10,707 nt of DNA, from contig CACYDQ010000226.1 in the NCBI GenBank assembly GCA_902773215.1, forward strand, positions 1 to 10,707, written 5' to 3'. Shown in pieces: positions 1-10,707 of the stretch. Under the pieces are notes generated by a model that searched no databases, was not told the origin of the DNA, and saw only the letters and a program-made list of their open reading frames with translations. Position 1 is the stretch's first letter. Each line of letters starts with the position of its first letter. The translations under genes were made by a program, and so were the position numbers. The stretch comes from an uncultured Spirochaetaceae bacterium. GTDB taxonomy: Bacteria > Spirochaetota > Spirochaetia > Treponematales > Treponemataceae.

Positions 1-348
1 GCCCTCACGCTCAAATATGCCCACGTGGACGAAGCCCTGCATTACATAGAAAGCCATCCTTCCGCCCCCAACCCCGGCACGTTCAGCGAGGCCGAGTGGG
101 AACAGGCACAGGAAGATTACAAGTACCGCTATTACATCGAAAAGCAGGACGCGCGGGTGGAAAAGCTCCGCCGCATGGAGGGGGCACGGATTCCCGACGG
201 ATTTGACTACGGCAAGATTGTCTCGCTCAGCGCGGAATCACGGATGAAGCTGGAAAAAATCCGTCCCGTCACGCTCGGCCAGGCTTCCCGTATCAGCGGC
301 ATCCGGAACAGCGACATCATGCTGCTGATGGTCTACCTGAAGAAGTGA
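1..348 (+). CDS. mnmG: MnmG (GidA) C-terminal fragment, tRNA modification enzyme
   Basis: Partial gene: the frame is open from base 1 and ends at TGA 346-348, giving the last 115 residues of a protein usually about 620-630 long. MnmG is the FAD- and NADH-dependent partner of MnmE that installs the (carboxymethyl)aminomethyl group at C5 of the wobble uridine in some tRNAs, in the cytoplasm. The visible part is the conserved C-terminal helical domain, which in the family contacts MnmE and tRNA. It carries the 'YRYYIEKQ' helix, 'RIPDGFDYGKIVSLS', 'KLEKIRPVTLGQASRISGI' and the final 'DIMLLMVYL'. The FAD-binding part lies outside the window. The gene converges on lptB with one base between the stop codons. 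Identification rests on motif recognition along the whole fragment; I see no damage. Confidence 0.95.
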   Translation, partial: ALTLKYAHVDEALHYIESHPSAPNPGTFSEAEWEQAQEDYKYRYYIEKQDARVEKLRRMEGARIPDGFDYGKIVSLSAESRMKLEKIRPVTLGQASRISGIRNSDIMLLMVYLKK

Positions 349-349
349 A

Positions 350-1096
350 TTACATCGAGAAGTCCTTTCCCAGGTAGATGTCGCGGGCAAGGGGGGAGTC
401 CAGAATTTCCTGCTTGCTGCCGGAAATCATCACCTGCCCCTGCGAGATGATGATGGCGCGGTCGGTGATTTCAAGCGTATCGCGGACGTTGTGGTCGGTG
501 ATGAGCACGCCTATCTTGCGCTCAGAGAGCATCTTGACGAGTTTCTTGATATCGGCGACGGCGATGGGGTCAATTCCGGCGAAGGGCTCGTCCAGAAGGA
601 GGAACTTGGGCTCTATGGCGAGCGAGCGGGCTATCTCCGTCCGCCGCCGCTCACCGCCTGAGAGGGTGAATGCCATCTGCTTGCGTATCCTGCCGATTGA
701 GAATTCCTCTATGAGCTCCTCCAGCCTGTCCTTCCGCTGGCTGTTCGTCAAATCCTTCCGGGTCTCAAGGATTGCCCAGATGTTTTCTTCCACGGTGAGC
801 TTGCGGAAAACGGAGGGTTCCTGGGGCAGGTATGAGATGCCGAGCGAGGCCCGCTTGTACATGGGCAGGCGGGTTATGTCCTCGCCGTCCAGAATGACGT
901 TGCCCCGGGTCGGCTTGTAGAAGCCGACTATCATATAAAATGTCGTCGTCTTGCCCGAGCCGTTTGGGCCGAGCAGGCCCAGGACTTCGCCCGTGGACAT
1001 GGAGAAGCCCACGCCCTTGACGACCTCCTTGCGTCCGAAGGATTTGTAGAGAGAGCTTATCTCCAGGCTGTGGACAGCATCGCTTCCGTTACTCAT
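350..1096 (-). CDS. lptB: LptB, ATPase of the lipopolysaccharide export ABC transporter
   Basis: Cytoplasmic ATPase (248 aa) that, as a dimer under LptF/LptG, powers extraction of LPS or a related glycolipid from the inner membrane onto the LptC-LptA bridge. All ABC motifs are present: Walker A GPNGSGKT (43-50) followed by the LptB-typical [10 protein letters not shown]-loop Gln92, signature LSGGE (145-149), Walker B with catalytic Glu170 (FLLLDE, 165-170) and H-loop His202. The family-typical '[18 protein letters not shown]' and '[11 protein letters not shown]' separate it from generic ABC ATPases. Length matches the family (about 240). The ATG at 1096 follows an AGAGGG ribosome-binding site and overlaps the lptA stop by 8 bases, so it is last in the pyrG-lptC-lptA-lptB operon. 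rpoN, a common downstream neighbour of lptB, is absent here. No lptF/lptG is visible in the window. Confidence 0.95.
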
Positions 1097-1730
1097 TTTC
1101 CCTCTTCACCGCACCACGGACACGGCCGTCGAGCGTCACCTCGTTGGTGTTCAGGTCCAGCACTATCTCCTGCGCCCTGAAGGTATCAGTCCCCTGCACA
1201 ATCTGCGGGTTCCCGCTCAGGAAGAGCTTCCGGGTCTTGGTATTATAAATCGCATAGGAACCGGTACACACGTTGTCCTTCTGCTGCATCGCGACGGAAA
1301 TCTGCATGACGACCGCCCCGCTCTTCTCGTCGTATTCCATCAGCTGTGCATTGGCGACGGCATCGTTGGCCCGGTCCACCAGGTGCACGGTATCCTGCAT
1401 GCTGGAAAGCTTGAGCTCCCGGTCATAGTGCATCTCGGCGCAGGTAAAGTCTATCTTCTCCTTTATGTTCGTGCCGCTGACGTTGCCGGTCGCCTTGATG
1501 TAGCGGTAGCCCTTGCCGGACAGTTCGATGGAGTCCGCGAAAATCTCCACGCTCTCGGTCGTTATGCTCGCGTTCCCGGTCAGGCGGGCGTAGTCCCCGC
1601 CTTTGCCGCTGCTGCCGGTCATGCTGTCCGCGCGGAACATCACGGTCTCGGCCCGGACGGGGCTTATGGAGAGGCAGAGCGACACAAGGAAGAAGAACCG
1701 CATGGCCGGAAAGACGCGGAGGAACTTCAC
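1089..1730 (-). CDS. lptA: LptA/OstA-like periplasmic bridge protein
   Basis: Periplasmic protein (213 aa) of the OstA/LptA beta-jellyroll family, which polymerises into the bridge carrying LPS from LptC to the outer-membrane LptD. It has a Sec signal peptide (residues 1-27: hydrophobic core [12 protein letters not shown], cleavage after PVRA). The mature part has the repeating family pattern: 'FRADSM', 'RLTGNASI', 'IFADSIELS', 'IKATGNVSG', and a second set '[25 protein letters not shown]' split around the mid-region. I chose GTG at 1730-1728 as start because it forms a GTGA overlap with the lptC stop and follows a GGGGAGG purine run; an ATG ten codons in (MRFFF...) would also leave a usable signal peptide. 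Spirochaetes such as treponemes are reported to lack classical LPS, so if the host is one, the cargo may be another glycolipid (inference). Confidence 0.85.
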
Positions 1731-2308
1731 CTGCCCGCCTCCCCGGACGTGCCGTCATCGTCGGTGATGATGAAGCCCGAGACATCGGAGGAGAAGGAAA
1801 ACTCAGCTCCCCGCTCGCGGGCAGAAAATCCCTTGCCTTCAAGCGTAAGACCGTCCTTTGTCATCGTCGTGACGGACGACTCCGGCGAGGCGACCCTGCC
1901 GCTCGTCCGGTTCCACTTGAGCGCATCCGCCTCAAGCTTCATCCCCTCTTCGGGCTGTTCCATGACGACGGCCCCGTAAAAGCTCAGCTCGGAGTTGTCT
2001 TTATTCCCTGCCCGCCCTATGCCGAGAAGCTTGCACCGCCCTTTCGCTTCCAGCGTACCGTCCTCGGAGTAAGAGGAGAAAACCGCGTCCTCCACGTAGG
2101 TGACGGACGGAGAGGAATACTGCTCGATGCGCGGGGAGTCAAGCGAGAATGAGACCGCGTTGCCCTCGTAGCGGAAAAAGCTTGCCGTCCTCAGCGTAAA
2201 CTGAGGTGCAGAAGACTCCACGGCAGCATTCTGCTCGTAGTTCAGGGAACATGAAGAGAAGACAGGAAAAAGCAGGATGACCGCAAGCTTAGTTAAAGAG
2301 ACTTCCAT
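1727..2308 (-). CDS. lptC: LptC-like lipoprotein (LPS transport periplasmic component)
   Basis: 193 aa. The N-terminus has a lipoprotein signal peptide: short basic start, hydrophobic run LAVILLFPVF and a lipobox FSSC with lipidation Cys20. Classical LptC of Escherichia coli is instead held by an uncleaved transmembrane helix; lipoprotein versions are known from other phyla. The mature domain has the LptC pattern: 'FSLDSPRIEQYSS' early, then 'LEADALKWNRTSGRVASPE', a 'DGLTLEGKGFSA' turn and 'FSFSSDVSGFI' at the end. It is weakly conserved, so the call leans on gene order directly before lptA and lptB. The start overlaps the pyrG 3' end by 20 bases and has a good AGGGAGAG ribosome-binding site; the stop overlaps lptA. 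It should receive lipid from LptB2FG and pass it to LptA at the inner membrane's periplasmic face. Confidence 0.78.
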   Translation of the reverse strand: MEVSLTKLAVILLFPVFSSCSLNYEQNAAVESSAPQFTLRTASFFRYEGNAVSFSLDSPRIEQYSSPSVTYVEDAVFSSYSEDGTLEAKGRCKLLGIGRAGNKDNSELSFYGAVVMEQPEEGMKLEADALKWNRTSGRVASPESSVTTMTKDGLTLEGKGFSARERGAEFSFSSDVSGFIITDDDGTSGEAGR

Positions 2309-3917
2309 CTCTCTCCCTGCCCGCTATCGCAGCCTGGATGAAGGAGTCAAAGAGGGGGTGCGGCTTGGTCGGCCGGCTGACGAATTCCGGGTGATACTGC
2401 ACGCCGATTCCCCAAGGATGATCCGCCCACTCGAAGGCCTCCACCTGAGAATCCTCCGAGGACAAGGCAGAGACAATCAGACCGTGCCCCTCCATATCCT
2501 TAGTGTAGCGGCGGTCAAAGCTATACTTGGACCGGTGACGCTCGGTTATCTCGTCCGCGTTGTATATGGAATACAGCCTGGTGTCCTTCTTGATGGAGAT
2601 GCCGCTCGCCCCCAGCTTCATCACGTGGGATGACGGCTCCGACTGCTCCTCGGGCAGGCTTATGACCGGATGCCTGGAGTTCTGGATGAACTCGGTCGTG
2701 TCCGCATCCTCCCATCCGCAGAGGTCACGGGCGGTGTCAATCGCCATCAGCTGCATTCCCAGGTCTATGCCGAGGTAGGGAATCTTGTTCCGGCGGGCAT
2801 AGCGGACGGTGGAAAGCAGGCCCAGAAAGCCCCTCTGCCCGTAATTGCCGGGAACGACGATGCCGTCAACCCCTTCAAAGAAGGAGGACACGTCGTCGGT
2901 ATTGGCGTTCTCGAGGGTCTCCGCATCTATCTTGCGTATCTTGATTTCCGCGTCGTTGCCGGTGACGGCGGCATGGAAGAGGGACTCCTGCACGGACTTG
3001 TAGCAGTTGTCCAGGTAATCCTTTTTGCCGACCATGCCGATGCAGACACTGCGGGAAGGATGGTTCAGCCTGTCTATGAAGGATGACCACTGCCTGATGT
3101 CCGTCGTCCTGTTGCCGAGAGAGAGCTTATCCAGAATCAGCTTGTCCAGGCCCTGCTCATGGAATATCTGGGGCAGCTCGTATATCGACTTCCTGACGTC
3201 CGGCGAGACAAAGACCGCGTCCGGGGCGACGTTGCAGAAGAGGGCTATCTTCTTCTTGAGGGACTCATCCACCGGGGCCTCGCAGCGGCAGAGCAGGATG
3301 TCAGGCTGAATTCCCACTTCCTGCAGCTGCTTGACGGAGTGCTGGGTCGGCTTGGACTTGAGCTCACCCCCGGTGATGACGGGAATCAGGGTCAGGTGGA
3401 CGCTGATGGCGTTGCCCCGCCCGAGCTCCCTGACCAGCTGCCTCGCGGCCTCCAGGTAGGGCACGGCCTCTATGTCGCCGACCGTTCCCCCTACCTCCAC
3501 GATGACCACGTCCGCCTTGGACTTCTCGCCCAAGTGGCGGATGCACCGCTTTATCTCGTCCGTTATATGGGGAATGACCTGCACGGTCCTGCCGTTGTAG
3601 CGGCCGGCCCGCTCGTTCCTGATGACGTTCTCGTAGACCTTGCCGATTGATATGCAGTTCTCATTGGTCAGGTTGACGCTCGTGAAGCGGCTGAAATTGC
3701 CCAGGTCCAGGTCAGTCTCCGCCCCGTCCTCGGTGACGTAGACCTCACCGTGCTGGTAAGGACTTATGTTGCCCGCATCAACGTTGATGTAGGGGTCGCA
3801 TTTGAGCATGGAAATCTTGAGGGAAGAGCACTCAAGGAGGCTCCCGATAGTGCTGGAGGCCACGCCTTTGCCCAGGCTGGAACAGACCCCGCTCGTGACA
3901 AGGATATACTTACTCAT
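2289..3917 (-). CDS. pyrG: CTP synthase with intact synthetase but altered glutaminase nucleophile
   Basis: Cytoplasmic enzyme (542 aa; E. coli 545) making CTP from UTP, ATP and an ammonia donor. The N-terminal amidoligase half is well kept: P-loop SSLGKG (13-18), KCDPYINVD (39-47), HGEVYVTEDGAETDLDLG (56-73), VEVGGTVGDIE (140-150) and KSKPTQHSVK (187-196). The C-terminal class I glutamine amidotransferase half keeps the His509/Glu511 pair (YHPEF), but the nucleophile elbow normally reading GICLGMQ is GIDLGMQ, with Asp385 (codon GAC, 2765-2763) in place of the Cys. The oxyanion loop PGGFG is PGNYG (356-360). Glutamine hydrolysis by the standard mechanism should therefore fail, leaving ammonia-dependent activity (inference from known chemistry). 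No frameshift or stop is present and the domain is full length, so this is not a decayed gene. First gene of the operon with lptCAB; CTP feeds phospholipid and sugar-nucleotide synthesis, which fits its envelope-gene partners. Confidence 0.93.
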   Translation of the reverse strand: MSKYILVTSGVCSSLGKGVASSTIGSLLECSSLKISMLKCDPYINVDAGNISPYQHGEVYVTEDGAETDLDLGNFSRFTSVNLTNENCISIGKVYENVIRNERAGRYNGRTVQVIPHITDEIKRCIRHLGEKSKADVVIVEVGGTVGDIEAVPYLEAARQLVRELGRGNAISVHLTLIPVITGGELKSKPTQHSVKQLQEVGIQPDILLCRCEAPVDESLKKKIALFCNVAPDAVFVSPDVRKSIYELPQIFHEQGLDKLILDKLSLGNRTTDIRQWSSFIDRLNHPSRSVCIGMVGKKDYLDNCYKSVQESLFHAAVTGNDAEIKIRKIDAETLENANTDDVSSFFEGVDGIVVPGNYGQRGFLGLLSTVRYARRNKIPYLGIDLGMQLMAIDTARDLCGWEDADTTEFIQNSRHPVISLPEEQSEPSSHVMKLGASGISIKKDTRLYSIYNADEITERHRSKYSFDRRYTKDMEGHGLIVSALSSEDSQVEAFEWADHPWGIGVQYHPEFVSRPTKPHPLFDSFIQAAIAGRERDGSLFN

Positions 3918-3926
3918 TACACCCGT

Positions 3927-3955
3927 ATTCTCACATTATTCGCCCTTTTGGTCAA
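3927..3955 (-). promoter_or_regulatory. Candidate sigma-70-type promoter for pyrG-lptCAB
   Basis: On the minus strand TTGACC (3955-3950), a 17-base spacer and GAGAAT (3932-3927) preceded by TGT, an extended -10. The predicted start is only about 3 bases before the pyrG ATG (3917), which would make the transcript nearly leaderless; no purine-rich ribosome-binding site is seen in the nine bases before that ATG. Found by eye; not tested against background. Confidence 0.4.
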
Positions 3956-4002
3956 GAAGCTGTCCCCGGGGTACGGCAGCAGGCACGGACCGGATTGAAA
4001 CC

Positions 4003-4031
4003 TTGCATAAAAGGCTCCTTTCTGCTACCCT
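4003..4031 (+). promoter_or_regulatory. Candidate promoter for the zinc-ribbon/TPM genes
   Basis: TTGCAT (4003-4008), 17-base spacer, TACCCT (4026-4031); the predicted start is near 4038, giving a leader of about 30 bases with an AGAGG ribosome-binding site (4051-4055) before ATG 4067. Both boxes are only partial matches to consensus. Confidence 0.35.
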
Positions 4032-4066
4032 GTAAGCAAAGCTCTTAGAGAGAGGTTCAGAGAGAA

Positions 4067-5530
4067 ATGGCAAACAGATGTCCCAGCTGCGGAGGGACGC
4101 TCCGCTTTGACATACAGAAGCAAAAACTCGTCTGCGAGTACTGCATGAGCGAGTTCGACGCGTCGAACATGCCCCAGATGGGAGGGGCGAACGAAAGCGA
4201 GGCTTTCGGGCAGGAGACTGCCCATGAAGAGGGCGGCGACACGATTGACGCGAAGATTTTTACCTGCCCCAACTGCGGGGCGGAAGTCTTTGCGACCGAC
4301 CTGGACGCGGTGGAGTACTGCTCCTACTGCGGCACGTTCGTCACTCTGGAGAGCCGGCTTGCCAAGTTGCAGAAGCCGTCGTACATCCTCCCCTTCGCCG
4401 TCACGAAGGAAAAATGCATGGAGCTCTACAAGGAGAAGCTCAAGGCCGCCCGCTTCCTCCCGAAGGATATGTCGGCAGAAGGGGCGGAGAACAGCTTCCG
4501 CAGGATTTACATCCCATTCTGGGCATACGAAGTGGACATCAACGCGGACAAACAGATAAGCGCGGATACTTATGAAAAATGGACCAGAGGAAACACGGAG
4601 TACACCCAGCATTACACGATAAAGGCCAATGCGGACGGAAAGCTGGACAACATATTTTTTGATGCCTCGGCCACGCTGGATGACCGTATAAGCGAGGAGA
4701 TAGGGAATTTCCCGATGGACTCGCTGCAATCTTATAACAGCTCCATCATGGCCGGCTCATACGCGGATGTCGCGGACGTGAGCAAGGACACCTACGCGGA
4801 CAAGGCCTACGACAAAGGGCTGGACACCCTGATGGGAGAAGTCCGCTCTAACCTTGCGCAGAGCGGGGGAAGAGGAATGTCCGGCTCATCCGTGCGCAGC
4901 GTGGGCGGGCTCTCGGATTTCAGCCTCCCTGGAAAGACACGGAAAGACTACGGCCAGACGACCGCCAAGCTCGCCATGCTGCCGGTCTGGTTCATGACAT
5001 ACAAGAACAAAAACAGGCTCTGCTACGCCGTCGTCAACGGCAGCACGGGCAAGATGTTCGCGGAGATTCCGGCAGATCTCAAGAAATACACAATTTCTTC
5101 CATTATACTGGCAATCCCGATTTTCTTCCTGCTGGAATTATTCCTGACCCTCATGCCCAGAACCATGCTCACGGTCACAGGAATCCTTTCGCTTATCATC
5201 CTGATAAGCTACTGGTATGTCAGCAGCAAGCTCAAGAAGCAGGAGAACAGGACGAACGACTTAGGCTTCCAAAAGGTATTCAAAAAGCAGGCGGAATCTT
5301 CCGGGGGCAACTCTTTTGGCCGCGGGGCTCTGGTCTCCATACTCTCGCTGATTGCGGCGGCCATCCTGACGGCAATGGATATGCCGAACGACCTTTTGTA
5401 TTACGGATGCTCGCTTCTGTGCACCGCAGGCTCGTTCATCGCGATAGCGTCGATGGTCAAGGCGCACAACCTCTGCTGCTCGCGCCCCATCCCGCATTTC
5501 TTTGAAAAAAGGAAGGAGGCCGGAAAATGA
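4067..5530 (+). CDS. Double zinc-ribbon membrane protein of unknown function
   Basis: 487 aa. The N-terminus has two treble-Cys ribbons: CPSC (5-8) with CEYC (23-26), then CPNC (67-70) with CSYC (85-88). Each is a four-Cys zinc site like the TFIIB/rubredoxin-type ribbons used in annotation names for this family. A soluble region (about 105-340) follows; it includes 'ILPFAVTKEKC' and 'RRIYIPFWAYEVD', features I associate with zinc-ribbon proteins found beside TPM proteins. The C-terminal third carries four likely membrane helices, roughly 343-363, 366-386, 418-436 and 443-464, with a basic loop between the second and third. There is no signal peptide, so the ribbons should lie in the cytoplasm. 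The next gene overlaps by 4 bases (ATGA), implying translational coupling and a shared complex. No enzyme motif is visible; the biological role is unknown to me. Confidence 0.85.
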   Translation: MANRCPSCGGTLRFDIQKQKLVCEYCMSEFDASNMPQMGGANESEAFGQETAHEEGGDTIDAKIFTCPNCGAEVFATDLDAVEYCSYCGTFVTLESRLAKLQKPSYILPFAVTKEKCMELYKEKLKAARFLPKDMSAEGAENSFRRIYIPFWAYEVDINADKQISADTYEKWTRGNTEYTQHYTIKANADGKLDNIFFDASATLDDRISEEIGNFPMDSLQSYNSSIMAGSYADVADVSKDTYADKAYDKGLDTLMGEVRSNLAQSGGRGMSGSSVRSVGGLSDFSLPGKTRKDYGQTTAKLAMLPVWFMTYKNKNRLCYAVVNGSTGKMFAEIPADLKKYTISSIILAIPIFFLLELFLTLMPRTMLTVTGILSLIILISYWYVSSKLKKQENRTNDLGFQKVFKKQAESSGGNSFGRGALVSILSLIAAAILTAMDMPNDLLYYGCSLLCTAGSFIAIASMVKAHNLCCSRPIPHFFEKRKEAGK

Positions 5531-6378
5531 TGAAGCTGAAAAAACTTGCCGCCCTGTTCCTTGCGGTCACGCTCATGCTGCCCGGCTTTCTGACGGCGCA
5601 GGACTATGAAGACTATGATGACTACGAGGACTATGAGGATTACGAAGATTACGAGGACTATGAGGCTGATGGCGAAAACGATAGCCAGTATCTGGCCTAC
5701 AGCAATAATGAGACAGGCTATGTCATCCTGATAGAAGACATGGCCGACCTCCTGTCCGAGGACGAGGAGGAGGCGCTCGTTGACGAGATGTTCCCCCTGA
5801 CGGAATGGGGCAACGCATTCTTCTGCACGAGCGGCACAGGAGGGGGCAGCTCCGAGAATGACCTGGCCGCGACCCTGTACGAGCAGGAGTTCGGGCACGG
5901 GGCAAGCGGCGCAATCTTCCTCATAGACATGAGCAGGAGGAAGCTCGCGATACACTGCGACGGCGAGGTCTACAGGACGGTAACCACTGATTACGCCCAG
6001 ACCATCACGGACAACATATACCGGAAGGCAAGTGCGGGTGATTACTACGCCTGCGCCGCGGAGGCTTTCAGGCAGATGACGACCCTGCTCGAGGGCGGGA
6101 AAATCAGCCAGCCGATGAAGCACGTGACCAACGCCCTGCTCGCCCTCATGATTGCCCTCTTCATCTGCTACATCTATATGTCAGGGAAGAGCAAGACTGC
6201 CAGCGAGAAGAAGCAGCCCGCGGCAGATCCGGTCTTCAAGGGGCACATCTCTCATCTGGACGTCATTCCCGGCAGTCTGACAAAACGCGTCATCCAGAGC
6301 TCCTCCGGCGGCAGGAGCGGCGGAGGCGGAGGCGGCGGAGGCGGACATTCCGGCGGAGGAGGCAGCCACGGCTTCTAA
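5527..6378 (+). CDS. TPM-domain membrane protein with DYE repeats and Gly-rich tail
   Basis: 283 aa. The N-terminal signal peptide is probably cut after LTA (residue 24). A strongly acidic Asp-Tyr-Glu repeat (26-46) follows. Then comes a TPM fold (about 65-190; TLP18.3/Psb32/MOLO-1 family, formerly DUF477) seen as 'VILIEDMADLLSEDEEE', 'GASGAIFLIDMSRRKLAIHCDGE' and 'AGDYYACAAEAFRQM'. A single membrane helix (201-219) places the TPM domain outside the cytoplasm and the rest inside. The C-terminus ends in a long Gly run and SGGGGSHGF, a tail common in bacterial TPM proteins. TPM proteins have been linked to photosystem repair in plants and to acid phosphatase activity; the role of bacterial forms is unclear. 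Translation is coupled to the zinc-ribbon gene through the ATGA overlap, so the two probably act together. The stretch 100-112 is Ser/Gly-rich and may be a loop. Confidence 0.85.
   Translation: MMKLKKLAALFLAVTLMLPGFLTAQDYEDYDDYEDYEDYEDYEDYEADGENDSQYLAYSNNETGYVILIEDMADLLSEDEEEALVDEMFPLTEWGNAFFCTSGTGGGSSENDLAATLYEQEFGHGASGAIFLIDMSRRKLAIHCDGEVYRTVTTDYAQTITDNIYRKASAGDYYACAAEAFRQMTTLLEGGKISQPMKHVTNALLALMIALFICYIYMSGKSKTASEKKQPAADPVFKGHISHLDVIPGSLTKRVIQSSSGGRSGGGGGGGGGHSGGGGSHGF
5602..5664 (+). repeat. Seven tandem 9-base units encoding Asp-Tyr-Glu
   Basis: Seven consecutive in-frame units of GAC/GAT-TAT/TAC-GAA/GAG (the second unit ends in Asp). The units differ at third positions, so the array is old enough to have drifted and is held at the protein level, or has mutated since duplication. 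It lies just after the predicted signal-peptide cleavage site of the TPM protein. Confidence 0.95.
6319..6345 (+). repeat. GGCGGA-type repeat coding for the poly-Gly tail
   Basis: Short purine-rich array of GGCGGA/GGCGGC units encoding the nine-Gly run near the C-terminus of the TPM protein. Low complexity; length could vary between strains by slippage (inference). Confidence 0.8.
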
Positions 6379-7308: not shown

Positions 7309-8544
7309 ATGATAGGAAAGATACTCAAGAACCCCATCACCATACTGGTCGCGGTAGTCCTCGGAATCCTCTTCGGCTTCTACGAGAAGGAGATAGCCCT
7401 CTCCTGGGGAATCGTGGGCGACATGTACCTGAACCTCTTCCAGATGACGGTCATCCCGATTCTGGTCACGTCCATCGTCGCAAGCCTGGCCCAGCTGATG
7501 AAGGACTCAAACGCCCGGTCGCACATCGCGAAAATCCTCATTGTCTTCGTCATAATGCTCGCGGCCACGTCGGTGTTCGGGACCCTCGCGGGTACCCTCG
7601 CCCGCCCCGGCAAGGACCTGGGTGATGCGACGACGGCGGTCCTGGACAAGATAATCAAGTCCTCTGCCGACACGAGCAAGGACGAGATGGCCCTCTATGA
7701 CCCCTCGAAGGACAAGAGCTCGGGCGGCTCATCGCTCGTGGACTTCTTCGTCAACATCATCCCGTCCAATATCTTCACATCCTTCAGCAACGGCTCCATC
7801 CTGCAGCTTGTCTTCTTCTCGATTATATTTGGCATCGCAATCGGCTTCCTCAAGGAGGACATGTCGGCAAGCCTGATACACGGGGTTCTGTCGCTCAAGG
7901 ACTCCTTCCAGAAGCTCATAAACTGGACGATGTACGGGCTTCCCATAGGCCTCGTCTTCCTGATGGGCAAGCAGATTGCCCAAGTCGGCGTGGAAATCCT
8001 GCTCGCGATGGTCAAGTTCATCGTCATCTTCTATGTGGCGGGCCTCATCACGATGATCGTCTGCAGCATCATCATCTGGCTTAAATCCGGCATAAAGAAC
8101 CCGGCGGCCGTCATGCAGAAGGTGATGGATCCCATCGTCATCTGTTTTGCGACGAGGAACAGCTTCGCCGCTATGCCCTCCTCAATCTCCGCCCTCAAGG
8201 GCCTGGGATTCGGCGAGAACATGGTGGACCTGGTCTATCCGCTCGGACTGACCGTCCTCCGCTTCGGCAACATCATGTACTTTGCGCTCGCATCCTGTTT
8301 CGTCGCGCAGGTATACGACGCTTCCCTGCCCGTCTCGTCGCTCATGCTCATCGTCATCGGCTCCCTGCTCGCAGGCACGGCGACGGCAGGCGCGTCAGGT
8401 CTCCTGACCCTGCCGATGATCTCGCTGATACTGGATCCGATAGGGCTTCCGGTGGAGTCAATCCTCGTTGTCTTCATGGCGATTGACTCGCTCATAGACC
8501 CCATGCGGACCCTGCTCATCGTCTACATGAACATCGCGACGACG
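7309..8544 (+). other. Domain: SDF/DAACS symporter (residues 1-412)
   Basis: About 412 residues, the normal size of the family that includes DctA, GltP and archaeal GltPh. Landmarks aligned by eye to GltPh: TM2 'MYLNLFQMTVIPILVTSIVASL'-type helix (35-56); HP1 tip FATRNSFAAMP (280-290), where GltPh has FSTRSSSGTLP; TM7 PLGLTVLRFGNIMY (311-324), where GltPh has PLGATINMDGTALY; HP2 tip GTATAGASG (356-364); TM8 IDSLIDPMRTLLIVYMN (392-408). Asp397, Arg400 and Thr401 match GltPh Asp394, Arg397 and Thr398, which hold acidic amino acids. Ile404 replaces Asn401, and the NxDGT cation motif is lost (Leu317, Phe319 and Asn321 at the Asn310, Asp312 and Thr314 positions). Substrate recognition may persist while sodium coupling is altered (inference). 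Confidence 0.88.
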
Positions 8545-10707
8545 GCCCTCGTCGCACCCAAGGAGACGGAAGAGGAGCGGATTGCAAACGCCCTGCTGCG
8601 CGAGGCAAACGCGGAGGGCAACAACATCTTTACGCTGGAGCCCGAGAAAATGGAGAAAGAAACTGTTATGGCGGCCCGGGACACGGCTTTGCCGGCCGCG
8701 GTCTCAATGTCGGCCGCTCCGGCCGTGGCAGCCGCACTGCCTTCCGCGAAGGCGCGGACTGCCCCCGCAAACACCGCATCACCGGTCAGGCATTCGGGCG
8801 GCATGAAGATACGGATACGCGACGCGCTCGTCATCCTGAACACCCTGCTCCTTGTCGCGACCGCGGCCATCATCATGACGATAAACTCGCGCGGGACGCA
8901 GGACTCGGTCTACTCGGTCTCCACCAAGCTCGTCACGGAAATCCTGAAGTCCGTTGACACCAAGATTGAGGCGTACTACACACCGGCAGACCAGGCGATA
9001 CACAACATCGCCTTCCACTACTGGAAGGAAGACAAGTTCCACTTCCGCGATAACAACGAGAACGCCCTGGACTACTTCATGGAGCTGCTCAAGACCCACA
9101 ATGAGTTCGCGATGGTCTACTTCGGTGATACCGAGGGCAACCTGATAATGGGACGCCGCATGCCGGACGGCTCACTGACCCGCCGCTACATAACGCGAAC
9201 CGCGAACAGGGTGCTGACCCGCTATGTCCATGAGAGCATGCAGTATAATGCGACCTTCCCCAACACGGAGGAGGGGCTGGAGACGGGCTACGACCCGCGC
9301 ACCCGCGGCTGGTACAAAAAGGCAGTGAATAACAAGAAGACTGTCTGGACCAACGTCTACATCTTCGCGACGGACAACATGCCGGGCTTCTCCTGTGCCT
9401 CGCCGATATATGACAATAACGGCAAGCTCCTGGGCGTTGCCTGTATAGACATAGGGATACGAGACCTCTCTCTCTACCTGGGGAACATCTCTACGACGGC
9501 GAATTCCAAGCTGTTCATCTACGACCAGGACAACCAGATCATCGCCAAGCCGCTCAAGCCCGAGGATCCGATCGGCACCCTGCTCAACGTCTACCCGTCG
9601 GCGGACGGCAGCAACACCTATGCGATGAAGAAGGTGGACGACAAGGCCGAGCCGATTATCGCCGAGGCGTTCGAGAACAGCAGGGGCCGCGTGAACAAGG
9701 AGGGCATTTACTCCTTCAGCCTGGACGGCAAGGAATACTTCTGCAAGATAGACTCCATGCCGCTGGACGAGGAGCTTTCCATGAACGTCGGCATGGTCAT
9801 ACCGGACAACGACATCATGGGAATCGTCTACAAGAACAACAGGACGGTGCTCATCATATCCCTGATTGTCATCATCATCGCGATTATCATCTCCGTGCTC
9901 GTCTCCTCGGTCATCTCCAAGCCGATGAAGACCCTGTCCACCGAGATGAACAACATCAAGGAGCTGGCGATTGATGACGGCGTGGTCATGCACGACTCCG
10001 GCATAAAAGAGATAGACAACATGGTCGAGTCTTTCGAGGGAATGAAACAGGGCCTCGTCAACTTCAAGAAGTATGTTCCCTCCGACCTCGTGACCCAGCT
10101 CATACGGAACAGCCAGAAGGCGGAGATAGGCGGCAAGAAGCAGACGCTGACCCTGATGTTCTCCGACATAGAGAACTTCACGGGCATCTCCGAGATGACC
10201 AAGCCGGAGGACCTGGTCAACCGCCTCTATGACTACTTCTCCCTCTTCGCCCATACGATTTCGGGCAACCGGGGCACGATAGACAAATACATCGGAGACT
10301 CCATCATGGCCTTCTGGGGCGCACCGGTCGAGATGGACGTGAAGCAGCATGCGGAGCTTGCCTGCCGCTCGGCCCTCACCTGCCAGATGCAGGGCTTCAA
10401 CCTGTCCAACGCATGGATACGGGAGGGCAAGCCCAAGTTCCGCACCAGGTTCGGAATCCACACGGGCGAGGTCGTCGTCGGCAACATGGGCTCGGACGAG
10501 AGAATCAACTACACCGTCCTCGGCGACAACGTGAATCTCGCGAGCCGCCTGGAGGGAATCAACAAGTACTACGGGACCGAGATAATCGTCAGCTCCGTCA
10601 CTCATGACCTGATTAAGGAAGAATTCGAGTTCCGCATGCTCGACAAGATAACGGTGAAGGGCAAGACGAAGCCCCTCTATATTTACGAGCTCCTTGCGGA
10701 GAAAAAC
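7309..10707 (+). CDS. DAACS symporter-dCache-HAMP-adenylate cyclase fusion (partial at 3' end)
   Basis: A single frame of at least 1133 codons, with no stop before the window edge. Order: SDF/DAACS-type symporter (about 1-412), cytoplasmic Ala/Pro-rich linker (413-498), transmembrane helix (507-527), periplasmic dCache sensor (530-843), transmembrane helix (844-866), HAMP-like segment and coupling helix (867-935), class III nucleotide cyclase (about 941-1130). DAACS proteins have both ends in the cytoplasm, so the linker, the outward sensor and the inward cyclase are topologically consistent. The cyclase fold reaches its last conserved strand (KGKTKPLYIYEL), so the true stop should lie a few codons beyond. 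It probably makes cAMP in response to a solute seen by the transporter, the dCache domain or the upstream binding protein (inference). I translated every codon by hand and found no frameshift or stop at the junctions. Neither half looks degraded, apart from changes at the cation site of the transporter. Confidence 0.92.
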   Translation, partial: MIGKILKNPITILVAVVLGILFGFYEKEIALSWGIVGDMYLNLFQMTVIPILVTSIVASLAQLMKDSNARSHIAKILIVFVIMLAATSVFGTLAGTLARPGKDLGDATTAVLDKIIKSSADTSKDEMALYDPSKDKSSGGSSLVDFFVNIIPSNIFTSFSNGSILQLVFFSIIFGIAIGFLKEDMSASLIHGVLSLKDSFQKLINWTMYGLPIGLVFLMGKQIAQVGVEILLAMVKFIVIFYVAGLITMIVCSIIIWLKSGIKNPAAVMQKVMDPIVICFATRNSFAAMPSSISALKGLGFGENMVDLVYPLGLTVLRFGNIMYFALASCFVAQVYDASLPVSSLMLIVIGSLLAGTATAGASGLLTLPMISLILDPIGLPVESILVVFMAIDSLIDPMRTLLIVYMNIATTALVAPKETEEERIANALLREANAEGNNIFTLEPEKMEKETVMAARDTALPAAVSMSAAPAVAAALPSAKARTAPANTASPVRHSGGMKIRIRDALVILNTLLLVATAAIIMTINSRGTQDSVYSVSTKLVTEILKSVDTKIEAYYTPADQAIHNIAFHYWKEDKFHFRDNNENALDYFMELLKTHNEFAMVYFGDTEGNLIMGRRMPDGSLTRRYITRTANRVLTRYVHESMQYNATFPNTEEGLETGYDPRTRGWYKKAVNNKKTVWTNVYIFATDNMPGFSCASPIYDNNGKLLGVACIDIGIRDLSLYLGNISTTANSKLFIYDQDNQIIAKPLKPEDPIGTLLNVYPSADGSNTYAMKKVDDKAEPIIAEAFENSRGRVNKEGIYSFSLDGKEYFCKIDSMPLDEELSMNVGMVIPDNDIMGIVYKNNRTVLIISLIVIIIAIIISVLVSSVISKPMKTLSTEMNNIKELAIDDGVVMHDSGIKEIDNMVESFEGMKQGLVNFKKYVPSDLVTQLIRNSQKAEIGGKKQTLTLMFSDIENFTGISEMTKPEDLVNRLYDYFSLFAHTISGNRGTIDKYIGDSIMAFWGAPVEMDVKQHAELACRSALTCQMQGFNLSNAWIREGKPKFRTRFGIHTGEVVVGNMGSDERINYTVLGDNVNLASRLEGINKYYGTEIIVSSVTHDLIKEEFEFRMLDKITVKGKTKPLYIYELLAEKN
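8545..8802 (+). other. Domain: cytoplasmic Ala/Pro-rich linker (residues 413-498)
   Basis: A charged helical stretch (KETEEERIANALLREANAE, 414-432) leads into low-complexity Ala, Pro, Ser and Thr (about 454-498) with no recognisable fold. It ends at HSGG just before Met499. The stretch looks like a tether between two formerly separate proteins; the frame stays open throughout. Confidence 0.8.
8803..9906 (+). other. Domain: membrane-anchored dCache sensor (residues 499-866)
   Basis: Begins MKIRIRDALVILN, which resembles the start of a free-standing membrane receptor, with TM helix 507-527. The extracytoplasmic part (530-843) is a dCache_1-type double PAS-like sensor: YDPRTRGWY (661-669), then Tyr684, 'SPIYDNNGKLLGVACIDI' (699-715) and 'LFIYDQDNQIIAKP' (730-743). 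Compared with the published amino-acid-binding dCache motif (PctA-type, recalled from memory), Tyr661, Arg666, Trp668, Tyr669, Tyr684 and Asp714 fall at the expected spacings; the Asp two after the second Tyr is Phe686 here. The second TM helix is 844-866, very Ile-rich. Arg-x-Trp-Tyr alone occurs in other Cache ligand classes too, so an amino-acid ligand is likely but not proven. Confidence 0.82.
9907..10707 (+). other. Domain: HAMP-like segment and class III adenylate cyclase (residues 867-1133)
   Basis: A HAMP-like pair of helices starts at Pro872 (KPMKTLSTEMNNI) and includes the conserved KEIDNMVESFEGM (901-913). A coupling helix FKKYVPSDLVTQLI (919-932) follows. The cyclase has both metal-binding Asp residues, Asp953 (FSDIENFT) and Asp997 (KYIGDSIMAFWG). 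It also has adenine-selecting Lys993, Thr1069 in NYTVLGDNVNLASR (the Thr of class IIIb enzymes), and transition-state residues Asn1076 and Arg1080. All catalytic positions are filled, so a homodimer should be active; Lys plus Thr favours ATP over GTP. Class IIIb enzymes are often bicarbonate-responsive (family knowledge). Confidence 0.9.

Follow-up and report, generated by a model that had tools for sequence, protein, structure and literature searches.

A spirochaete gene joining a DAACS transporter fold to a dCache class III cyclase receptor: a candidate one-piece amino-acid co-sensor

Introduction

DctB of B. subtilis is a solute-binding protein (SBP). In the DctB/DctA/DctS sensor unit of this bacterium it is the accessory co-receptor (excerpt of PMC6978683), and in E. 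coli the DAACS protein DctA acts as a co-sensor by putting DcuS in the responsive state (excerpt of PMC8307970). How a transporter can serve as a receptor still needs explaining for such units, because their components are separate and sensitive to dose. The locus described here resembles both units in the pairing of a DAACS co-sensor, here a putative one, with a membrane receptor that has an extracytoplasmic sensor domain. It differs in that receptor and DAACS part form one chain, a class III cyclase takes the place of the histidine kinase as output, the Na+ ligands have been lost, and the signs favor amino acids over C4-dicarboxylates. The three-partner precedent of B. subtilis lay outside an earlier reading of this DNA made from the sequence alone (the sequence-only reading). 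The locus and its relatives form a natural set, comprising a construct with a built-in 1:1 ratio, relatives in which the genes are separate, another clade of fusions, and variants devoid of ion sites; therefore, ligand binding could be tested against ion coupling and flux by a simple cAMP read-out.

Ks-Amt5, an Amt protein joined to a histidine kinase, is similar in that a transporter fold serves as a sensor fused to a signalling enzyme and a trimeric membrane part carries a normally dimeric output domain, but it has another transporter fold and ligand, no dCache in between, and a kinase instead of a cyclase (excerpt of PMC5764959). From dCache class III cyclase receptors, the present protein differs by the eight-TM DAACS fold that precedes the receptor in the same chain, and by a HAMP domain that is not called. 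The plant protein AtKUP5 reportedly has a short cytosolic centre within a K+ permease, not a class III cyclase receptor of the type fused here. An adenylate cyclase centre has been described for this permease, so that both activities are claimed in one chain (excerpt of PMC6243130). We found no description of a DAACS-cyclase fusion in open-licence PMC text, in agreement with the sequence-only reading, which knew of none; NCBI already carries such proteins, named 'cation:dicarboxylase symporter family transporter'.

Results and Discussion

The window analyzed in this study (10,707 nucleotides from an uncultured Spirochaetaceae bacterium) ends within a single open frame encoding a symporter-fold domain, a Cache domain, and a cyclase domain, as the sequence-only reading had stated (Table 1). 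Pfam matched SDF (PF00375), dCache_1, and a class III cyclase in the extended protein. The SDF match covers the entire domain with a score exceeding the curated cut-off, and the fold agrees, indicating a member of the SDF/DAACS fold, and the C-terminal 630 residues have the layout of a class III adenylate cyclase receptor with dCache. HAMP (PF00672) gave no Pfam row at E <= 0.001 in the fusion protein. A complete relative of 1204 aa (P0001) is 99% identical. The AF2 model of the DAACS part alone was of good quality and yielded a fold match; the full-length model was poor (mean pLDDT 57), and only its low-confidence linker and confident dCache were used. The linker segment (416-501) varies from 60 to 131 residues over the 38 rows of alignment A1, from which P0032 was excluded, evolves fast in the dN/dS comparison, and is predicted to be disordered.

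Table 1. Features of the fusion gene and its upstream neighbor in the window
Feature	Positions	Strand	Basis or remark
Periplasmic solute-binding protein SBP_bac_3, 269 aa	6487..7296	+	Pfam PF00497, E 1.5e-24
Fusion gene, DAACS - linker - TM - dCache - TM - class III cyclase	7309..10707	+	3' end missing (contig end)
DAACS/SDF domain, residues 11-416	7339..8556	+	Pfam; AF2 model, fold match
TM3 Na3-site positions replaced: F80, M83, L84 (GltPh Y89, T92, S93)	7546..7560	+	Alignment
TM7 L317-R318-F319-G320-N321 replacing GltPh N310-M311-D312-G313-T314	8257..8271	+	Alignment
TM8 kept: D393, D397, R400, T401 (GltPh D390, D394, R397, T398)	8485..8532	+	Alignment
TM8 replaced: I404 (GltPh N401), N408 (GltPh D405)	8485..8532	+	Alignment
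Linker, variable and disordered, residues 417-500	8557..8808	+	Alignment A1; AF2 confidence
dCache_1 Pfam stretch, residues 657-810	9277..9738	+	Pfam
dCache amino-acid motif Y661, R666, W668, Y684, D714 (PctA Y121, R126, W128, Y144, D173)	9289..9450	+	PctA alignment
Second TM and HAMP-position segment, residues 833-915	9805..10053	+	Helices with low confidence in AF2
Class III nucleotide cyclase domain	10138..10671	+	Pfam; catalytic residues conserved

The same architecture recurs across genomes. At least 42 protein clusters from several sources contain the fused DAACS-dCache-cyclase chain, a lower bound because each protein search scored about 8000 candidates sharing most words; P0201, a partial record lacking the cyclase, was kept out of them. 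Contigs bearing the fusion reach 331 kb, and 12 of the 32 genomes with the cassette described below carry it. The source MAG is fragmented (523 contigs, 72% complete) and a strain-variant contig overlaps the end of the window, which could point to two genes joined by assembly or binning; we rejected this explanation, whose probability is negligible, because the fusion recurs independently in these clusters and on contigs of this length. All domains of the fusion are under purifying selection according to dN/dS values for two relatives (L046 and L048), the other four of the six compared having DAACS, dCache, or cyclase dS values that were saturated, undefined, or above 1.9. For the DAACS part, dN/dS was about 0.05 against L046, which rules out simple degeneration of this half. 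The locus also shows that the DAACS fold, to which the neuronal glutamate transporters belong, can lose its ion sites wholesale and yet stay under strong selection.

Compared with Na+-coupled DAACS proteins (GltPh, EAATs) and uncoupled ancestral ones, the NMD motif (N310, M311, D312), Y89, T92, S93, and D405 are replaced here and position 311 is an invariant Arg in the subfamily (GltPh numbering; comparison based on an excerpt of PMC12668577). Replacement of N310, M311, D312, D405, and position 93 extends to 36 of 36 subfamily locus rows, two of which (L047 and L090) lie on the same contig, and that of position 92 to 35, the exception being L094 with Ser. Among the canonical DAACS used as control, N310, M311, T92, and D405 are intact in 18 of 18 rows (17 loci in other genomes of the order; the fetch of 18 loci had given 19 rows, of which L125 belongs to the RFGN subfamily and was excluded). 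A paralogue in the own genome (C35) is a different SDF, likewise non-canonical, and was unusable as a control. Where Na+-coupled DAACS have S/T at 92-93, N310, M/S at 311, D/E at 312, and D/E at 405, the window protein has M83, L84, L317, R318, F319, and N408. These residues rule out an ordinary Na+ symporter for the DAACS part, and the contrast with the canonical rows argues for a sensor. Na+-driven transport has probably been lost, and transport by this part is doubtful.

The main substrate ligands persist. In the acidic amino-acid ligand set of the window protein, D394, R397, and T398 are kept, whereas T314 is replaced by Asn and N401 by Ile. Among the 36 rows, R397 is kept in all and D394 in 35, and these two residues underlie the ligand class proposed below; L113 differs from the other 35 rows at D394, T398, R276, and further positions, and nearly all rows have Ile or Leu at 401. 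N401 of GltPh also binds aspartate. The HP1 and HP2 regions remain recognizable.

The amino-acid motif of dCache_1AA sensors has been defined in PctA as Y121, R126, W128, Y144, and D173 (excerpt of PMC10104139). All five residues are present in the window and in 37 of 37 receptor rows (L096 and P0033 being the same protein), predicting amino-acid binding. In the cyclase domain, D953, K993, D997, T1069, N1076, and R1080 are likewise conserved in 37 of 37 rows, giving the residue set of a putative adenylate cyclase of class III (a metal-binding Asp pair, base-selecting Lys and Thr/Asp, Asn, and Arg). We take D953 and D997 to be the metal residues, K993 and T1069, presumably the ATP-type pair, to be the base residues, and N1076 and R1080 to be those of the transition state. 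The nearest solved relatives of the domain bear the names CyaB and adenylate cyclase, and cNMP-binding proteins are present in all 12 genomes searched, which belong to the 32-genome set. The product is probably cAMP. Two residues can switch class III cyclases and Lys/Thr enzymes of this class are often bicarbonate-sensitive, so the cyclase might make cGMP, or bicarbonate might be its main regulator with the amino-acid part secondary; with K993 and T1069 kept in every row and relatives so named, this is very improbable.

The gene lies in a conserved cassette of SBP_bac_3, DAACS, dCache-cyclase, and Asp/Glu racemase. We surveyed the 32 genomes in which a member of this DAACS subfamily is complete or nearly so; among the matches listed, G394, G307, G223, G329:C25, and G269 were partial or weak and were left out before the count. 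The SBP of the window has an N-terminus that is signal-peptide-like when read by eye. An SBP is the immediate neighbor of DAACS in 31 genomes of the set, and the racemase, downstream in relatives, is near in 26. The dCache-cyclase is fused in 12 genomes and separate but near in 16, so that DAACS is genetically tied to it in 28 of 32, as in a DctA-type co-sensor. Its place is taken by a chemoreceptor in two genomes (G284, G287) and by a hybrid histidine kinase in one (G326). The remaining genome, G174, has SBP and DAACS without any receptor nearby, and its DAACS retains Ser and Asn at positions 92 and 401, respectively; SBP and DAACS may therefore also serve some purpose by themselves. The upstream SBP, the downstream racemase in relatives, and the dCache motif had not figured in the sequence-only reading.

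In some cassettes the cyclase lies ahead of the SBP or beyond the racemase; this, together with the disordered, fast-evolving linker, would fit operon neighbors that are merely co-expressed, with neutral stop-codon loss joining independent halves. This explanation seems improbable, since two fused clades have the same domain order, intact through deep divergence (40-41% identity between the clades), and a chemoreceptor or kinase adjoins the SBP where the cyclase is absent. The cassette, the two clades, and the conserved ligand and catalytic residues support a functional tie between the DAACS domain and the cyclase receptor. That part of the sequence-only reading, which had coupled solute binding or flux to cAMP, is thereby strengthened; its working symporter with reported flux is not supported, as every aligned row of the subfamily lacks the NMD motif and D405, and in P0201, an additional fused lineage, the DAACS substrate ligands are missing too.

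The best reading of these features is a fused DctB/DctA/DctS-type co-sensor that would turn the presence of a probably acidic amino acid into a cAMP signal. With reasonable though limited confidence, we regard the protein as a single-chain receptor for amino acids in which a transporter has been put to new use, with DAACS as ligand-binding co-sensor and cAMP as output. The periplasmic SBP would collect the amino acid, which is most likely acidic; the DAACS fold, its Na+ sites gone, would still hold it, acting as DctA does for DcuS; and the periplasmic dCache would bind an amino acid too. The joint state of both would set the activity of the cytoplasmic cyclase, whose cAMP would serve the cNMP-binding proteins of the cell. 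Fusion would fix a 1:1 ratio and proximity, where other spirochaetes would co-transcribe separate genes instead. The architecture, its conservation, the cassette, the two fused clades, and the residue changes are observations; the ligand, the direction of the response, the cAMP product, the loss of Na+-driven transport, and contact between the two membrane parts are what we infer. These results suggest that evolution turned a transporter into a receptor part in some gut spirochaetes.

Several features count against this co-sensor. Being long, variable, and disordered by prediction, the linker cannot itself transmit movement; DAACS proteins are trimers and class III cyclases work as dimers, a mismatch; N401 is replaced by Ile; and, judging by P0201, ligand binding by DAACS is not needed in every lineage. 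The recognizable HP1 and HP2 regions leave room for movement and Na+-free transport. Proton-coupled DAACS are characterized by A/L/I/V/M/F at 92, L311, and N405, with E279 as the putative protonation site, and DAACS exchangers independent of Na+ exist (excerpt of PMC12668577). Two of the three signature residues are present here (T92M, D405N). Accordingly, the SBP could deliver an amino acid to a DAACS part working by facilitated or proton-driven transport, with the cyclase reporting load or flux, a TRAP-like design of SBP and elevator transporter built on DAACS. It is not a TRAP or TTT system, which would have a DctM/TctA-type membrane subunit; the membrane part here is SDF, with no other transporter family called by Pfam. 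The adjoining SBP, the main substrate ligands, the strong purifying selection on the DAACS part, and the receptor-free pair of G174 fit such a transporter. We nevertheless consider it rather unlikely, given Arg instead of Leu at 311, Phe instead of Glu at 279, the loss of the whole NMD motif, the nearly general Ile/Leu at 401, and P0201, still fused to dCache after losing its substrate ligands.

The co-sensor reading can be extended, tentatively and as a plausible rather than a probable case, to the whole spirochaete DAACS subfamily, which would have left transport, with ion coupling lost and an invariant Arg replacing M311, to become an SBP-gated, ligand-binding receptor subunit with interchangeable dCache outputs (cAMP, chemotaxis, phosphorelay), the cAMP version having been fused probably twice. 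If so, these proteins would form a class of bacterial transceptors that signal through a second messenger.

In the receptor tree, the fused receptors form two separate clades, and two changes are needed on the DAACS tree as well. One fused clade was ruled out by the AU test (p 1.1e-50), which covers a single fused clade, not an early fusion with many splits, the group having been chosen once the contexts were known. The separation into two clades suggests that the fusion probably arose twice; a single ancient fusion that later split several times would be a less parsimonious history. Genomes G441 and G431, which lie outside the order, also have unfused cassettes, and in G301 the SBP is spread over two frames. 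Additionally, lone dCache-cyclase receptors are present in other Spirochaetota (G598, G500, G436, and others), with no DAACS neighbor in the stretch read, the surroundings having been read for 14 of 19 further places.

Fusion gene and its domain architecture

The frame read as open from its ATG through the end of the window contained matches to the SDF, dCache_1, and Guanylate_cyc profiles of Pfam, which bears out the sequence-only reading that one frame joins a DAACS symporter to a dCache-cyclase receptor. A HAMP domain was not called in the window protein (Pfam, E ≤ 0.001). The window gene lacks about 70 C-terminal residues because the window is the entire contig C226 of a MAG with 523 contigs and 72% completeness; the complete form is protein cluster P0001 (1204 aa, 99% identical, on a 166 kb contig). 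Another contig from this MAG, C336, showed 92.4% nucleotide identity to the last 736 nt of the window; past this overlap, it was collinear with the sequence that follows the gene in a close relative (locus L046). C336 is probably a strain variant, with two strains in one bin. The sensor half also matched the NCBIfam model of the phosphodiesterase GepA (E 5.3e-33), far below its cut-off (114 vs 1200 bits).

Between the window and L046, dN/dS was 0.021/0.39 for the DAACS part, 0.036/0.33 for the dCache part, 0.010/0.30 for the cyclase part, and 0.131/0.68 for the linker. Identity to the window was 30% in the linker, the least conserved part, compared with 83% in the DAACS core and 87% in the cyclase (31 of the 32 clusters of the first fused group aligned), and the linker length ranged from 60 to 131 residues across all 38 aligned rows.

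Distribution and history of the fusion

A full-protein search for the same architecture across genomes identified at least 38 protein clusters whose chains combine SDF with Guanylate_cyc, forming two groups (at least 32 at 66-99% identity and at least 6 at 40-41%). Querying with the DAACS domain from the second group brought in four further clusters, giving at least 42, and an assembly artefact was rejected on this count. All five named genome loci belonged to MAGs of the Spirochaetales; going by their titles, at least four come from projects that we take to be rumen projects (RUG being read as rumen).

The fused state requires two changes on both the DAACS tree (62 rows) and the receptor tree (37 rows), as forced by the starred branches. 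Constraining the fused receptors to form a single clade cost 336 log units and was rejected (p-AU 1.1e-50), with the constrained group named after the contexts had been seen and both trees being quick ones. Two gains of the fusion are the simplest reading of these trees; one early fusion followed by many splits is less parsimonious. The partial record P0201, retrieved by the second-group DAACS query, carried SDF, dCache, and the receptor linker, and its pocket residues D394, R397, and T398 were replaced too; it is perhaps a third, more decayed fused lineage. In both P0039 and the L104 gene, the DAACS was directly followed by a decayed C-terminal cyclase end with no dCache profile; in L104, a separate cyclase was located behind the racemase.

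Conserved cassette

A DAACS match of any kind was found in 163 of the 390 genomes of the order, at least 32 of which had a nearly full-length subfamily member (≥36% identity); 32 contexts were read. The SBP_bac_3 gene adjoined the DAACS gene in 31 of 32, and the remaining contig begins inside the DAACS gene. The dCache-cyclase was fused in 12 and separate but near in 16. A chemoreceptor was located immediately 5' of the SBP gene in two genomes (G284 and G287, the latter with an additional hybrid kinase behind) and a hybrid histidine kinase in one (G326), while no receptor was seen near the SBP-DAACS pair in the context read for G174. An Asp/Glu racemase was near in 26 of 32, with Cys90 and Cys217 in 26/26. 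Among the other six, a contig or stretch end cuts the context short in three (the window, G227, and G323), and no racemase was seen near the cassette in the contexts read for G174, G243, and G326. The racemase of locus L048 passed the NCBIfam cut-off for amino-acid racemase TIGR00035 (130.6 vs 93.1), yet its best score, to cysteate racemase, was below the cut-off (145.9 vs 190).

In a wider survey, 21 of 392 genomes of the phylum gave strong matches. Fourteen further places were read, comprising two unfused cassettes outside the order (G441 and G431) and 12 with a dCache-cyclase and no DAACS within the stretch read, some stretches being short.

Coordinates of features in the loci analyzed
Feature	Record	Position	Strand
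Fusion gene, open to window end	window	7309-10707	plus
Sensor half (residues 500-919), GepA model match	window	8806-10065	
Overlap with C336	window	9972-10707	
DAACS gene, decayed cyclase end attached	L104	8461-10203	minus
Receptor replacing cyclase, directly upstream of SBP-DAACS pair (dCache chemoreceptor in two genomes, hybrid histidine kinase in one)	L103	3106-5268	
Same	L105	8765-10837	
Same	L113	1-2868	
CHASE2-cyclase gene, downstream of cassette	L046	11827-13866	
SDF match	L055 (G000:C35)	173-1345	
C-terminal SBP_bac_3-like part	P0040; most of P0044-P0061; most of P0190-P0200, not P0197		
C-terminal SBP_bac_3-like part, at ends of most unfused DAACS	L095-L113		

Proposed ligand and signaling

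The window dCache aligned to PctA (E 6e-8), for which five residues are given for amino-acid sensing (PMC10104139). All five were present in 37/37 receptor rows, which comprise both fusion groups and unfused relatives. The same rows retained D953, K993, D997, T1069, N1076, and R1080 of the cyclase, to which we presumptively assign catalytic roles. Together, the SBP, a DAACS with a pocket and without ion sites, an amino-acid dCache, and an Asp/Glu-family racemase suggest a single small amino acid, probably an acidic one.

No DAACS-cyclase fusion was found in the open-licence literature, in agreement with the earlier view of it as undescribed; the component parts and the co-sensor principle are already known. 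DctA is reported to put DcuS in its responsive state by contacting the linker after TM2 (Stopp, Schubert, Unden; PMC8307970), and a review describes DctB, DctA, and DctS of B. subtilis as probably a tripartite sensory unit (PMC6978683). By analogy, the window gene looks like a DctA-type sensory unit in a single chain; with its neighboring SBP, it would form a DctB/DctA/DctS-like unit with a class III cyclase as output. The main rival explanation is that the DAACS part, which lost its Na+ sites, is a transporter working without Na+. In the single-chain sensory unit, cAMP from the cyclase would act on PF00027 proteins as candidate targets, and such proteins were found in 12/12 cassette genomes searched. 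DAACS proteins are trimers and cyclases dimers, a symmetry mismatch. Ks-Amt5 presents the same puzzle, with a kinase as output (PMC5764959).

Other observations

Many unfused subfamily DAACS carried a C-terminal SBP_bac_3-like domain or remnant, which should lie in the cytoplasm because no obvious TM precedes it; one of them (P0191) comes from a named species, Salinispira pacifica. The CHASE2-cyclase gene in the table lies in a close relative. The incomplete genome of the window contained nine more cyclase-domain matches, not counting the window gene or its strain-variant copy, and only one other SDF match was found (L055), without most known Na+ and substrate ligands. Positions 1-6378 of the window held ordinary-looking genes, including the MnmG C-terminus, an ABC ATPase adjoining LptA- and LptC-like genes, CTP synthase, a TPM-domain protein, and a zinc-ribbon-like protein with sub-threshold Pfam matches only.
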